Source: Porphyrobacter sp. HT-58-2 (lineage in GTDB: Bacteria > Pseudomonadota > Alphaproteobacteria > Sphingomonadales > Sphingomonadaceae). Taken from it: a stretch of DNA of 64,000 bases. Positions 25,593 to 59,197 of the stretch are shown here, piece after piece. The notes under the pieces were generated by a model. It did no database searches and was not told where the DNA came from. It saw nothing but the letters and a program-made list of their open reading frames with translations. The stretch lies in NCBI RefSeq assembly GCF_002952215.1, contig NZ_CP022600.1:2232001-2296000 (forward strand). The letters run 5' to 3'. Every line of letters starts with the position of its first letter. The first letter of the stretch is position 1. A program made the position numbers and the translations under genes.

Positions 25593-25943
25593 TTACTGCC
25601 CCCCATCTCCGTTCGTGTCGAGCGAAGTCGAGACATCTAGTCGTGGAGTGCCTGTGGATCGTTCGGCGGGCGGCTTGGCGAAGTGTGAGAGGGCTTGCCA
25701 ATCCGACCGTGCAAGCGCCTCCTTCTTCGCGCGATACCACTTCTTGATGGTCAACTCGCTTTGGAGCGCTTCGACGCGTGAAGGGAAATCCTGCGCCCAT
25801 ATGAGCGTGACGGGGCGTCGCTTCGACGTGAACCCGCAATAGCCGCCGTGCTGATGCTCGGCCATGCGTAGCTCCAGGTTGTCCGTGTGTCCGGTGTAAT
25901 ATTTGCCGTCGGAACAGCGCAGAATGTAGCACCAGAAGGCCAT
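25593..25943 (-). CDS. GIY-YIG family protein with a repeat-derived C-terminus
   Basis: A 116-residue YhbQ-like stand-alone GIY-YIG domain. The N-terminus reads MAFWCYILRCSDGKYYTGHT, then MAEHQHGGYCGFTSKRRPVTLIW and ALQSELTIKKWYRAKKEAL. The nuclease-fold core ends near residue 95. The last 20 or so residues (RLDVSTSLDTNGDGG) are encoded by one arm of the dispersed repeat described at 25607-25634, and the stop lies just beyond it. It is wedged between yqeY and dnaG, only 6 bp before the dnaG start. Activity not predictable; members are usually uncharacterised. Confidence 0.85.
   Translation of the reverse strand: MAFWCYILRCSDGKYYTGHTDNLELRMAEHQHGGYCGFTSKRRPVTLIWAQDFPSRVEALQSELTIKKWYRAKKEALARSDWQALSHFAKPPAERSTGTPRLDVSTSLDTNGDGGQ
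25607..25634 (-). repeat. Single arm of the dispersed REP-like repeat inside the GIY-YIG gene end
   Basis: CTCCGTTCGTGTCGAGCGAA and continuing AGTCGAGAC matches the arm shared by the elements at 25958, 27254, 57969 and 58854. No convincing second arm follows, so it is a solo or decayed copy. In the gene's direction it is read as VSTSLDTNGDGG, the same frame as in CarA and GlyS. Confidence 0.8.
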
Positions 25944-25957
25944 GTCACACTCATACG

Positions 25958-26032
25958 CGTTCGCCTCGAGCGAAGTCGAGAGGCCACCACTGAACGGCCA
26001 GGGGTGTCTCGACTTCGCTCGACACGAACGGA
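25958..26032. repeat. REPIN-like paired inverted repeat between yqeY and the GIY-YIG gene
   Basis: Left arm CGTTCGCCTCGAGCGAAGTC (then GAGAGGCC) and right arm GGTGTCTCGACTTCGCTCGA (then CACGAACGG) are imperfect inverted copies about 17 bp apart. This is the non-coding form of the family. It fills almost the whole 100 bp gap between the two genes and could form a long hairpin in the transcript. Confidence 0.85.
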
Positions 26033-26644: not shown

Positions 26645-27910
26645 ATGGCCGACCCCGCAACTTTTCGTGCGCAACCTTCAGGGGCAACCGGCGTTCTGGT
26701 TCTGGCTGATGGCACGGTGATCTGGGGGCGCGGCTTCGGTGCCGTGGGCAGCGCGGTGGGCGAGGTGTGCTTCAACACCGCGATGACCGGCTATCAGGAG
26801 GTGATGACCGATCCCAGCTACGCCGCGCAGATCGTCACCTTCACCTTCCCGCACATCGGCAATGTCGGCGCCAATGCCGAGGACGTGGAAAGCCGCGTGG
26901 AAGGCGCAGTCGGTTGCATCGTGCGCGAGGATGTGACCGAGCCTTCGAGCTTCCGTTCGATCGAGCGGTTCGCCGACTGGATGGCGCGCAACGGCAAGAT
27001 CGGCCTTTCGGGCGTCGACACCCGCGCGCTCACCCGCCGCATCCGCCAGTCCGGCGCGCCCAATGCGGTGATCGCCCATGCGCCGGACGGCAAGTTCGAC
27101 CTGCCTGCGCTGCTCAAGCGGGCGCAGGAGTGGCCGGGCCTTGAGGGCATGGATCTTGCGGTGCGGGTGACGCGCGGCGCTGATGAACGATGGGACGGCG
27201 GTGCTTGGCAGTTGGGCAAGGGCTATGGGCGCGCGCCTTGGCCCAAGCCAGTTCCGTTCGCCTCGAGCGAAGTCGAGAGGCCGGAGAGCGGTGTCTCGAC
27301 TACGCTCGACACGAACGGAGGTGGGAAACTCCCTCACGTGGTCGCGATCGATTACGGCGCGAAGGACAACATCTTCCGCAATCTGGTGAAGGCCGGGGCG
27401 CGGGTGACGGTGGTGCCGGCGAAGACCTCGTTCGACGAGATCATGGCCTTGCAGCCCGACGGCGTGTTCCTGTCCAACGGCCCGGGCGATCCGGCGGCGA
27501 CCGGCGAATATGCCGTGCCGGTGATCAAGGCGCTGCTCGATGCCGATGTGCCGCTGTTCGGCATCTGCCTCGGCCACCAGATGCTCGCGCTGGCGGCGGG
27601 GGCGAAGACGATCAAGATGCACCAGGGCCACCGCGGCGCGAACCACCCCGTCCAGCGCGTCGGGGAAGGGTGGGGCGAGACCACCGGCCTCGTCGAGATC
27701 ACCTCGATGAACCACGGCTTCGCGGTGGACGCCGCAACCCTGCCGGAGAACGTCGAGCAGACCCACGTCTCGCTGTTCGACGGGACGAATTGCGGGATCG
27801 CGATCAAGGGCAAGAAGGCCTTCGCGGTGCAGTATCATCCGGAGGCGTCACCGGGGCCACAGGATAGCTTCTACCTGTTCGAGAAGTTCGTGGGGGGGCT
27901 GGGAGACTAA
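26645..27910 (+). CDS. carA: Carbamoyl-phosphate synthase small subunit with an in-frame repeat insertion
   Basis: Glutaminase subunit supplying ammonia to CarB for arginine and pyrimidine synthesis. 421 residues. The N-terminal domain shows [26 protein letters not shown] and [15 protein letters not shown]. The class I amidotransferase domain shows [28 protein letters not shown] with the nucleophile Cys, and [13 protein letters not shown] with the His/Glu. Residues about 204-225 ([21 protein letters not shown]) are encoded by a 65 bp dispersed repeat inserted exactly in the linker before [17 protein letters not shown]. All catalytic residues remain. Confidence 0.96.
27254..27318 (+). repeat. 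REPIN-like element inserted in frame in carA
   Basis: Left arm CCGTTCGCCTCGAGCGAAGT and right arm GTGTCTCGACTACGCTCGAC followed by ACGAACGG, in inverted orientation about 10 bp apart. Both arms lack stops in the carA frame. Same family as the elements at 25958, 57969 and 58854. Confidence 0.9.
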
Positions 27911-27913
27911 GCA

Positions 27914-28137
27914 ATGGCAGTCGTAAAACAGTTTTCGGTCGAACCTCAAAACTCTCGGATTGGCCATACTGAGTGCTCTGGAGTGATAAGGGCAATCGAG
28001 GTGGATGGAGAGAAGTTCATCCAGATCGACACGTACGGCTCCAAAGATCGAGAATTCCAGAACAAACTCTCTCAATCGCTAAGGCTCACTGAGGGCGCGT
28101 TTAACCAACTGATGAAGCTAGGCGAAAAGCACTTCTA

Positions 28138-28138
<1 letters not shown>
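27914..28138 (+). CDS. Small low-GC ORF between carA and carB, function unknown
   Basis: A 74-residue soluble protein ([17 protein letters not shown]...) rich in charged residues, with a conserved-looking core [20 protein letters not shown]. It begins 3 nt after the carA stop, and its stop overlaps the carB start (TAATG). The base composition is visibly lower in GC, with A/T-ending codons that differ from carA and carB. Not recognised. Likely acquired by horizontal transfer and fitted into the operon without breaking coupling. Confidence 0.75.
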
Positions 28139-55874: not shown

Positions 55875-56843
55875 ATGAGTGCCGCTCCCACCTTCACGCC
55901 GTCTCAGCGCGATCCTTCGCGCTCGTTTCAGGACATGATCCTGACGCTTCACGACTTCTGGAGCGAGCACGGCTCCTGCGTGATCCTTCAGCCCTATGAC
56001 ATGCGCATGGGGGCAGGGACGTTCCACACCGCGACCACCCTGCGCGCGCTCGGGCCGGAGCCGTGGAACGCGGCCTTCGTCCAGCCCTGCCGCCGCCCGA
56101 CCGACGGGCGCTATGGCGAGAACCCGAACCGGCTGCAGCATTACTACCAGTATCAGGTGATCCTGAAGCCGTCCCCGCCCGACATCCAGGCGCTCTATCT
56201 CAAGAGCCTCGCCGCGATCGGCATCGACCCGCTGGCGCACGACATCCGCTTTGTCGAGGACGACTGGGAATCGCCCACGCTCGGCGCCTGGGGGCTGGGC
56301 TGGGAAGTGTGGTGCGACGGGATGGAAGTCACCCAGTTCACCTATTTCCAGCAGATGGGCGGCTTCGACTGCAAGCCGGTCGCGGGCGAGCTCACCTACG
56401 GGCTCGAGCGCCTCGCAATGTACATCCAGGGCGTCGACAACGTCTATGATCTTGTTTTTAATAGCCCCCCGGCCTCAAGTAGCGAAGCGGTAGGCCAACA
56501 AGGAATCGTCACCTATGGCGAGGTGTTTCTCGAAAACGAGCGCCAGATGTCGAAGTGGAACTTCGAGGTCGCGGATACCGAAACCCTGTTCGAAGGCTTC
56601 CGCCGCGCCGAGGCCGAGTGCCTGCGCTCGCTCGAAGCCGGGGTGCCGATTGCCGCCTATGAACAGGCGATCGAGGCCAGCCACCTGTTCAACCTGTTGC
56701 AGGCGCGCGGCGTGATCTCGGTGCAGGAACGCGCCAGCTACATGGGCCGGGTGCGCGACTTGGCGCGCTCGTCCTGCGAGGCCTATGCGACCAAGATGAC
56801 GCCCGAATGGCAGGCGAAATATCCCGGGTGGAGTCTCGTCTGA
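55875..56843 (+). CDS. glyQ: Glycyl-tRNA synthetase alpha subunit
   Basis: Catalytic subunit of the alpha2beta2 enzyme. 322 residues, somewhat long. [74 protein letters not shown] and [20 protein letters not shown] are the family core. Between VYDLVF and IVTYGEVF there is an extra stretch of about a dozen residues ([15 protein letters not shown]) encoded by unusually AT-rich DNA (56450-56505). The stop overlaps the glyS start (TGATG). Confidence 0.95.
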
Positions 56844-59197
56844 TGGCCGACTTCCTGCTCGAACTGCTGTGCGAGGAAATCCCCGCCCGGATGCAGCCCA
56901 AGGCCAAGGAGGATCTGGCGCGGCTGTTCACCGATGCGCTGGCCAAGGCCGGATTGCAGGCGGAGAGCGTCGAGGCCTTCGCCACGCCGCGCCGCCTTGC
57001 CCTGATCGCGAAGAGCCTGCCGCTGGCGACCGAGGCTGTCAGCGAAGAGACCAAGGGGCCCAAGGTTGGTGCGCCGCCGCAGGCGCTGGAGGGCTTCCTG
57101 CGCAAGCTTGGCTTGTCGGAAGATCAACTGACCCAGCGCGACGGCGTATACTTCGCCGTGGTCGAAAAGCCGGGGCGCGATACGGCAGAGGTGCTGGCCG
57201 AAGCCATCCCGGCGATCATCCGTGCCTTCCCCTGGCCCAAGTCGATGCGCTGGGGCGCCGCTTCGATCACCACTGAATCCTTGCGCTGGGTGCGCCCGCT
57301 CTCGGGGATCATTGCGCTGCTCGATGGCGAAGTTGTACCGTTCGCGGTGGACGGGATCGCAAGCGGCCGCACCACCATGGGCCACCGTTTCCACCATTCC
57401 GGCCCGGTCGAAATCGCCGACGCCGGTTCCTATGTCGAAACCCTGCGCGCCGCGCACGTGATCGTCCATTTCTCCGAACGATGCCGGATTATCCGCGAAG
57501 GCGCGGCCAAGGCTGCGGCTGATGCTGGGCTGACGCTGGTCGCCGATGAAGGCCTGGTGATCGAGAACGCCGGGCTGACCGAATGGCCCGTGCCGCTGCT
57601 CGGCCGCTTCGACGAGGCGTTTCTGGATGTCCCCCCCGAAGTCATCCAGCTCACCGCGCGGGTGAACCAGAAGTATTTCGTGTGCGAAGGGCCGGACGGC
57701 AAGCTCGCCAACGCCTTTGTCTGCACCGCGAATATCGACCCGCGTGACCCCGCCGTGGTGGTCGACGGCAACCGCAAGGTCCTCGCCGCGCGGCTGTCGG
57801 ATGCGCGCTTCTTCTGGGAACAGGACCAGAAGACGCCGCTGGCGGTTCATGCCGAAAAGCTGTCGCGCATCACCTTCCACGAGAAGCTCGGCACCGTCGC
57901 CGACAAGGTCGAGCGGGTGGCCAAGCTGGCGCGGTGGTTGTGCGAGGAGGGGGTTGTTAGCCCCGCCTCCGTTCGTGTCGAGCGTAATCGAGACACCGAG
58001 AGCGGCCTCTCGACTACGCTCGAGGCGAACGGGGATGAGGTGCGCAAGCTGGCCGACATGGCCGAGCAGGCCGCACGCCTGTGCAAGGCCGATCTCGTCA
58101 CCGAAATGGTCGGCGAGTTCCCCGAATTGCAGGGCCTGATGGGCGGCTACTACGCCGCCAAGGAAGGCCTGCCGGTCGAAGTCGCCGAGGCGATCCGCGA
58201 TCACTACAAGCCGGTCGGGCAGGGCGACGATGTGCCGACGGCGCCGGTGACGGTGGCGGTGTCGCTGGCGGACAAGCTGGATACGCTGGCTTGCTTCTTT
58301 TATGCCGATATGGCGCCGACCGGCTCGAAAGACCCATTTGCTCTTCGACGCGCGGCGATTGGGCTGCTTGCTCTCTTGGTGGCGAATGGCATTCGTTTGC
58401 CGCTTTTGCTTCCGATGGCGATTGCGACGGGCGCAGCGACAGGACGGGTTCGCCATCTGGAGTTTATTTACAAGGTTGAGAACCTTGCAAAGGCTCGGGC
58501 GGAAGCTGGTGACCCGATGTCCGACGATGATAAGCGCGACAGCTATCAGAAGATGGTCGATCAAGTTTCTTCCGATCTTAAAACAGGAAAGTTTGACGAG
58601 AAGGTTTTGGGCGCTGTTACTGACCTCCTCGACTTCCTCGCCGACCGCCTCAAGGTCCAGCAGCGCGAGGCGGGCGTCCGCCACGATCTGATCGACGCGG
58701 TGTTTGCGCTCGGCGGGGAGGACGATCTCGTCCGCCTGCTCGCCCGTGTCCATGCGCTCCAGGCCTTCGTCACCACCGAGGACGGCGCCAACCTCCTTGC
58801 AGGCTACAAGCGGGCGGCGAATATCCTCAAGAAGGAAGGTGTCGAACCCACCTCCGTTCGTCTCGAGCGTAGTCGAGAGACCGGTGGTGAGGACGTCTCG
58901 ACTGCGCTCGACGCGAACGGGATGGGAGCGCTTTCCTACACCCCCGAACCGGCGGAAAAGGCGCTGATCGACGCGCTCGCCGCCGCTGCCCCTCGCGCTG
59001 CCGAGGCCGTGGAAGCGGAGAAGTTCGCCGATGCGATGGCTGCGCTGGCCACCTTGCGCGCACCCATCGACCGGTTCTTTGAAGAGGTGACCGTCAACGA
59101 TGCCGATGCGAACAAGCGCGCGAGCCGCCTTGCCCTGCTGGCGGCGTTCCGCGATGCCGTCCACCGGGTCGCCGATTTCAGCCGGATCGAGGGATGA
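56843..59197 (+). CDS. glyS: Glycyl-tRNA synthetase beta subunit with two in-frame repeat insertions
   Basis: 784 residues, against 689 in E. coli. Starts [21 protein letters not shown]. Family blocks: VRPLSGIIALLDGEVVPF, LTARVNQKYFVCEGPDGKLANAF, FFWEQDQKTPLAVHAEKL, DKLDTLACFF and KDPFALRRAAIGLL. Residues about 375-396 (VRVERNRDTESGLSTTLEANG) and 670-692 ([22 protein letters not shown]) are dispersed repeat elements in loops between helices. Residues about 482-594 come from a patch with lower GC and A/T-ending codons. The C-terminal anticodon-binding part ends AFRDAVHRVADFSRIEG. Confidence 0.95.
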   Translation: MADFLLELLCEEIPARMQPKAKEDLARLFTDALAKAGLQAESVEAFATPRRLALIAKSLPLATEAVSEETKGPKVGAPPQALEGFLRKLGLSEDQLTQRDGVYFAVVEKPGRDTAEVLAEAIPAIIRAFPWPKSMRWGAASITTESLRWVRPLSGIIALLDGEVVPFAVDGIASGRTTMGHRFHHSGPVEIADAGSYVETLRAAHVIVHFSERCRIIREGAAKAAADAGLTLVADEGLVIENAGLTEWPVPLLGRFDEAFLDVPPEVIQLTARVNQKYFVCEGPDGKLANAFVCTANIDPRDPAVVVDGNRKVLAARLSDARFFWEQDQKTPLAVHAEKLSRITFHEKLGTVADKVERVAKLARWLCEEGVVSPASVRVERNRDTESGLSTTLEANGDEVRKLADMAEQAARLCKADLVTEMVGEFPELQGLMGGYYAAKEGLPVEVAEAIRDHYKPVGQGDDVPTAPVTVAVSLADKLDTLACFFYADMAPTGSKDPFALRRAAIGLLALLVANGIRLPLLLPMAIATGAATGRVRHLEFIYKVENLAKARAEAGDPMSDDDKRDSYQKMVDQVSSDLKTGKFDEKVLGAVTDLLDFLADRLKVQQREAGVRHDLIDAVFALGGEDDLVRLLARVHALQAFVTTEDGANLLAGYKRAANILKKEGVEPTSVRLERSRETGGEDVSTALDANGMGALSYTPEPAEKALIDALAAAAPRAAEAVEAEKFADAMAALATLRAPIDRFFEEVTVNDADANKRASRLALLAAFRDAVHRVADFSRIEG
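57969..58032 (+). repeat. REPIN-like element inserted in frame in glyS, first copy
   Basis: Left arm CCGTTCGTGTCGAGCGTAAT followed by CGAGACAC, right arm GGCCTCTCGACTACGCTCGA followed by GGCGAACGG. 64 bp, arms inverted, no stop in the glyS frame. Confidence 0.9.
58854..58920 (+). repeat. REPIN-like element inserted in frame in glyS, second copy
   Basis: Left arm CCGTTCGTCTCGAGCGTAGT followed by CGAGAGAC, right arm GACGTCTCGACTGCGCTCGA followed by CGCGAACGG. 67 bp, no stop in the glyS frame, in the C-terminal domain. Confidence 0.9.

Follow-up and report, generated by a model that had tools for sequence, protein, structure and literature searches.

REPINs are pairs of inverted REP arms that are dispersed as one unit and are associated with a RAYT, a Y1 transposase. 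The elements described here were found in the order Sphingomonadales, whose members are mostly free-living bacteria. They resemble the palindromic elements of Rickettsia in being in-frame palindromes in conserved genes of an alphaproteobacterium, here in 11 genes of one genome and in 13 CarA sequences, and the likeness to the Rickettsia elements that had been proposed in a preliminary description of the locus holds in behaviour. However, the host order differs, and the present elements consist of two facing REP-like arms.

REPs lying in frame inside genes were in print by 2013, including examples in E. lithoralis and S. alaskensis (PMC3733652). According to the main text of that paper, GTAG and CGTC REPs are small palindromes, often paired, that code for 20-30 residues in more than half of the intragenic cases, with hosts including uvrA, a DNA ligase, tRNA synthetases and TruB of E. 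lithoralis and S. alaskensis; the CGTC REPs have no dedicated transposase, and recB of two Xanthomonas carries different REPs at about one site (PMC3733652). In the same main text (gene list of additional file 3 excluded), the word "carbamoyl" occurs 0 times and carA is unnamed, and no carA case appeared in the literature searched (open-licence papers without their supplementary files).

The window analysed here, a stretch of 64,000 nucleotides of Porphyrobacter sp. HT-58-2 (genome G000), contains a palindrome in frame in carA, which had been called REPIN-like. Its family, termed family A, has short palindromic arms whose stem changes compensate one another (169 of 170 cells), with two inverted arms dispersed as one unit (at least 40 places), and that part of the name stands; strict REPIN membership does not, as the RAYT gene that had been expected was not found in G000 by profile searches with PF01797 and NF047646, and a RAYT is accordingly rejected as the mobiliser there. 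Among 61 same-genus genomes, NF047646 gave three weak matches, none above the cut-off. PF01797 matched in four of the 15 genomes searched with it, and nine of the 11 non-matching genomes hold family-A arms. Unlike REPINs with RAYT, family A has 13 of 48 examined arm clusters inside genes. Family A ends in CCGTTCG and thus lacks the GTAG or CGTC tag, and two other inserts, in CarA of G015 and in glyS of G014, begin with CGTC-like letters as the main text of PMC3733652 describes them. In contrast to the published GTAG and CGTC REPs, several families here use the same sites of several proteins across genera. As far as the literature covered extends, this sharing of protein sites and the role of carA as a host are new.

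The carA insert and its family in the genome

The features of the carA region are as follows.

26645..27910, + strand: carA ORF, host of the insert, 421 aa
27254..27318, + strand: family-A palindrome in frame in carA, spelling 22 residues
27264-27278 (+) and 27294-27308 (-, one mismatch): arm cores of the carA palindrome
25958..26032, no strand assigned: extragenic two-arm family-A copy, between ORFs
25608..25635, no strand assigned: single family-A arm at the 3' end of a GIY-YIG ORF, spelling its C-terminal residues

The 65-base unit in carA reads CCGTTCG...CGAACGG, with its two arms inverted relative to each other. When positions 27250-27325 were folded as single-stranded DNA, the energy was -30.8 kcal/mol (z -7.4), and none of 200 dinucleotide shuffles was as good, which bears out the preliminary reading of a REP-type unit. 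The element is not unusually stop-free, as five of its six frames are open and 20% of shuffles equal that; the idea that such elements are specially free of stops is therefore unsupported.

The host ORF is open and keeps both of its Pfam domains, CPSase_sm_chain at residues 18-143 and GATase at residues 234-416. Against E. coli CarA (1bxr_B), the protein gives two matches, residues 16-205 to chain residues 5-192 and residues 229-416 to chain residues 190-371; the first ends at chain residue 192 and the second starts at 190, which places the insert where the CarA halves join, between the N-terminal and amidotransferase domains, as had been proposed. The catalytic motifs were also correctly described as intact: C308, H398 and E400, which we take to be the catalytic residues, are invariant among 32 aligned CarA. 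The insert had been said to add about 22 residues; that is indeed what the element spells, but the linker of this CarA has 37 residues against a median of 10, an excess of 27, because the flanking residues differ too.

The 15-base arm core has 54 exact copies in the 3.28 Mb genome and 0 in a reversed control, and in the window it occurs nine times at two or fewer mismatches against 0.38 expected; chance is therefore excluded. The two-arm unit was found at 40 or more distinct places (61 rows, of which 21 are the same place on the other strand), a lower bound because only 40 of 56 first-look candidates were scored. In 85 arms of G000 with eight tip types, all but one of the 170 stem-tip cells are Watson-Crick paired, compared with a mean of 80 and a maximum of 104 in 1000 shuffles, and the arms thus keep their pairing, as REPs do. 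The claims of a dispersed element and of an intergenic copy at 25958-26032 hold on these data.

Other repeats and small ORFs occur nearby and elsewhere in the genome. The single arm in the GIY-YIG ORF (25593-25943, - strand) spells its last residues, DVSTSLDTNGDGGQ, and holds the ORF end. The arms upstream of carA (25608-26032) have counterparts at similar distances upstream of carA in G011 and G014 (L303, L304; G014:C241), and copies outside genes can thus persist for long as well. A second palindrome family (CCCTCCCGCNNGCGGGAGG) lies at 16 places in G000, some of them clustered (e.g., C1:734384-735069), and the core of family B, introduced below, has 0 copies; both are exact-core counts, in which one core is self-complementary, so that each of its places is counted twice. 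Between carA and carB, a 74-residue ORF (27914-28138, + strand) with a GC content of 0.48, against 0.67 in carA, and no Pfam match is perhaps a foreign small gene.

Copies in other housekeeping genes and at the same sites in relatives

Thirteen of 48 distinct arm clusters lie in frame in 11 housekeeping genes of G000, the 48 being those in 47 fetched loci (L061-L090, L191-L207), a partial census that excludes the single arm at 25608-25635. A copy was counted as in-gene where an ORF with coding-type codon positions on both sides crossed the arm cluster. Eleven copies pass on both sides. In the second glyS copy and in that of rnr, one side passes, and these two were counted because Pfam matches span or adjoin the place; an antisense ORF opposite valS that passed the test was set aside. 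By Pfam names, the hosts are carA, a biotin carboxylase of the propionyl-CoA type, a class I tRNA synthetase (valS by likeness to protein P0037), uvrA, glyS (two copies), ligA (two copies), uvrC, ileS, a carboxyltransferase gene, trmD and a gene for an RNB-domain protein (rnr). Three reading frames are used among these copies. Besides the carA copy, two of the 13 lie in the window, both in glyS, and were overlooked in the preliminary description.

56807..59197, + strand: glyS ORF (glycyl-tRNA synthetase beta), host of two inserts, 796 aa
57969..58032, + strand: family-A palindrome in frame, glyS first site, spelling SVRVERNRDTESGLSTTLEANG
58854..58920, + strand: family-A palindrome in frame, glyS second site, spelling 23 residues

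The second ligA copy fails the ungapped inverted-repeat test because of an extra inner stretch. Alike inner stretches with a CCTGAGCCTG motif reminiscent of family B occur in this ligA copy (L087, about 2750-2846) and in the rnr copy (L205, about 1450-1540), as if one palindrome had entered another.

For the genes other than carA, 11 sites in nine genes (rnr left out) were compared with nine relatives, with some sites missing in some relatives. The family-A element is absent from most of these relatives. It is common to G000 and G011 at valS, the carboxyltransferase gene, trmD and the second ligA site, the last of which is shared also with G048, and it is common to G000 and G025 at uvrC. Four of the 11 sites are occupied in some relatives by another palindrome, which scores better than 200 shuffles:

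biotin carboxylase site: other palindrome family in G013
uvrA site: other palindrome family in G013
glyS first site: other palindrome family in G014 and G039
trmD site: other palindrome family in G013, G014 and G025

With carA, where G011 and G013 have family B, this makes five protein sites held by different families. The measured inserts in this comparison all have lengths divisible by three. At ileS and the second glyS site, some relatives have longer loops, which by the shuffle test are not palindromes. Misplaced stretches were left out, namely that of G025 at the first site in glyS and those of G039 and G011 at the first site in ligA.

CarA linkers across Sphingomonadales

A set of 126 CarA sequences (46 from genomes and 80 best named loci), of which 122 are distinct, has a two-peaked distribution of linker lengths: 107 linkers have 9-14 residues, one has 20, and 14 have 30-58. 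The segment is thus not universal in CarA, and ordinary length variation was rejected as its origin on the two peaks. Paired palindrome arms are carried by 13 of the 14 long linkers, in at least four families that were distinguished by eye: A (one variant), B (SVRPE..SSART), C (CGTC-like) and D (CTCCC-like). The inverted repeat exceeds 100 shuffles in 12 of the 13 long linkers scored; the 58-residue linker of L032, with family-B arms by eye, was left out of this scoring, and no inverted repeat was found in the long linker L184 (Sphingobium psychrophilum) or in the 20-residue linker L182. Hosts of long linkers include Pontixanthobacter, Altererythrobacter, Sphingobium, Sphingomonas and Sphingopyxis. 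The CarA halves lie 0-42 bases apart, in a listing read by eye, in 29 genomes from the order's other families, and such an insert is therefore absent there.

The insert had been predicted to be present in some strains and cleanly absent in close relatives. Among the 45 same-genus genomes with full-length CarA (own included), five have long linkers with a palindrome and 40 have short ones, in agreement with the first part; the absence is not wholly clean, as G000, G011 and G013 have common flanking residues around the insert (PW.K...GKLPHVV) that are missing in empty alleles. The comparisons support an in-frame, dispersed, paired-arm palindrome in the CarA linker that is present in some strains only.

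On a CarA tree built by a quick method from 121 sequences with linkers removed, the 13 insert rows need 13 changes, at least seven of them forced by the starred branches; these are changes and not insertions, because three changes can be one gain and two losses. The family-A CarA of G000 forms a weak group (87/22) with four B-bearing CarA, whose flanks it shares, and an exchange of palindromes within an inherited allele is therefore a possible alternative to fresh insertion. P0025, with family B, groups with the A-bearing P0002 and P0004 at 98/97, with different flanks. The ends of families A and B are identical (CCGTTCG...CGAACGG). Insertion points within the linker differ between genomes by several codons, which speaks for tolerance of the protein and against one exact DNA target; with no common target seen by eye, a single exact target in carA is unsupported.

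The G000 CarA linker as a protein query gave 10 matches beyond itself. Seven are CarA (P0002-P0008), and one is a biotin carboxylase that has the peptide at the same site; in the other two, a flavoprotein and an E2 acyltransferase (E-values 0.5 and 0.9), the peptide is still plain by eye. The G011 linker (family B) gave 53 matches, of which 10 are CarA and many are E2 acyltransferases; others are methylmalonyl-CoA mutases, TruB, Fe-S assembly ATPases, ValRS and the propionyl-CoA carboxylase alpha subunit, and P0021, P0022, P0037, P0039 and P0060 were inspected. In both searches, several non-CarA matches have E-values above 0.01, and CarA is favoured because the query is a CarA linker. The first glyS element gave four matches beyond itself, all of them GlyS in which the element occupies that site, although here too the query's own protein is favoured. 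Of these proteins, P0067 has a different insert at the second site and P0066 has half an element there, which looks like in-frame decay. Two different palindrome-like peptides occur together in the biotin carboxylase P0009 (FASSEVE and RRRPGPSG) and in the GlyS P0068 (SVRVERSRD and SVRPELVEG).

Origin and persistence of the inserts

We consider it probable, judging from the sequence comparisons, that a REP-type mobile palindrome stands in frame in carA and is most likely translated as CarA linker, and that such palindromes spread, survive in tolerant loops and are gained, exchanged and lost at the same sites. An enzyme would spread the palindromes through the genome. Inside genes, survival would be limited to copies that preserve the reading frame and lie in a loop or linker tolerating some 20-50 extra residues; the CarA linker may be such a place, as may a few loops in other core enzymes. 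Across Sphingomonadales, palindromes of several families would then have come and gone at the same protein sites, or replaced one another there, and a copy in an essential gene may be shielded from loss, because most deletions would break the gene. The recurrence suggests that certain core-enzyme loops are repeatedly occupied by mobile DNA. Mobile DNA usually ruins the gene it enters, whereas here several families recur in frame, in several genera, in the same loops of enzymes that are indispensable to most bacteria. Sites that are empty, occupied, swapped or half-lost make up a natural series on how proteins take up new segments and how small mobile elements persist, and they point to REP-like elements without a visible transposase.

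A different history, which we regard as a realistic though tentative possibility, is that each site received one or a few old insertions, which were inherited or passed from species to species when core-gene alleles recombined, and which were often lost or were exchanged in place for another palindrome, so that recurrence would reflect descent of alleles more than repeated landing. The carboxyltransferase insert, nearly identical in G000, G011 and G032, fits this history: between G000 and G032, its 23 codons differ by three synonymous changes and one nonsynonymous change, whereas the two flanking stretches of 150 codons differ by 56 and 49 synonymous changes, and the insert is therefore old or transferred, with its DNA conserved. 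The likeness of the first glyS insert in five GlyS, the flanks common to A- and B-bearing CarA and the identical ends of the two families point the same way. Against it, the CarA insert rows are scattered on the tree, with as many changes as rows, the families differ, and so do, outside the Erythrobacter-like group, the insertion points and the flanks. Targeted insertion, in which some DNA or mRNA feature of these genes attracts the mobiliser to the same sites again, would explain why several families share sites and why CarA is among the commonest hosts in two protein searches; we think it unlikely, as the CarA insertion points lie several codons apart without a common target by eye, and a search begun with a CarA linker is bound to favour CarA.

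The conserved palindrome DNA of the carboxyltransferase insert, together with the position of the CarA insert at a domain junction, could also be read as co-option, for instance as mRNA hairpins that slow ribosomes between the CarA domains, but this is very unlikely when 107 of 122 CarA have short linkers without it and the families differ. A strong hairpin inside a conserved gene might further suggest that the insert is missing from the finished protein through ribosome bypass or removal. We hold this to be highly improbable: those insert-bearing CarA ORFs that were examined keep an open frame, insert lengths at the other sites are divisible by three, and bypass would need no frame. Moreover, pN/pS in the carboxyltransferase insert is near that of its flanks, at 0.12 against 0.12 and 0.08 for G000 and G032 and at 0.12-0.15 against 0.08-0.13 over the range, with few changes in each case. 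Ordinary CarA length variation with no mobile repeat would suit linkers L184 and L182, in which no inverted repeat was found, but can practically be dismissed with the 65-base unit at 40 or more genome places and palindrome arms in 13 of 14 long linkers.

Returning to mobile palindromes that survive in tolerant loops, a further extension, speculative and rather unlikely in our estimate, is that a small set of core-enzyme loops (the CarA linker, GlyRS beta, TrmD, UvrA and the carboxylase alpha subunit) forms a shared platform to which a common mobiliser delivers families or at which it exchanges them, with essential genes acting as refuges that reseed the genome after extragenic loss.

Copy numbers vary widely among genomes, with exact family-A arm cores numbering 54 in G000, 21 in G011 and 0 in G039. 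Genomes with few copies keep a large share of them in these core genes, on small numbers. Four of the 19 places examined in G011 are inside genes. Of the four two-arm copies in G032 (E ≤0.001), at least two are in carA and the carboxyltransferase gene, and the three in Pontixanthobacter rizhaonensis (E ≤0.001) lie in carA and in uvrA-like and trmD-like genes, at the same sites.
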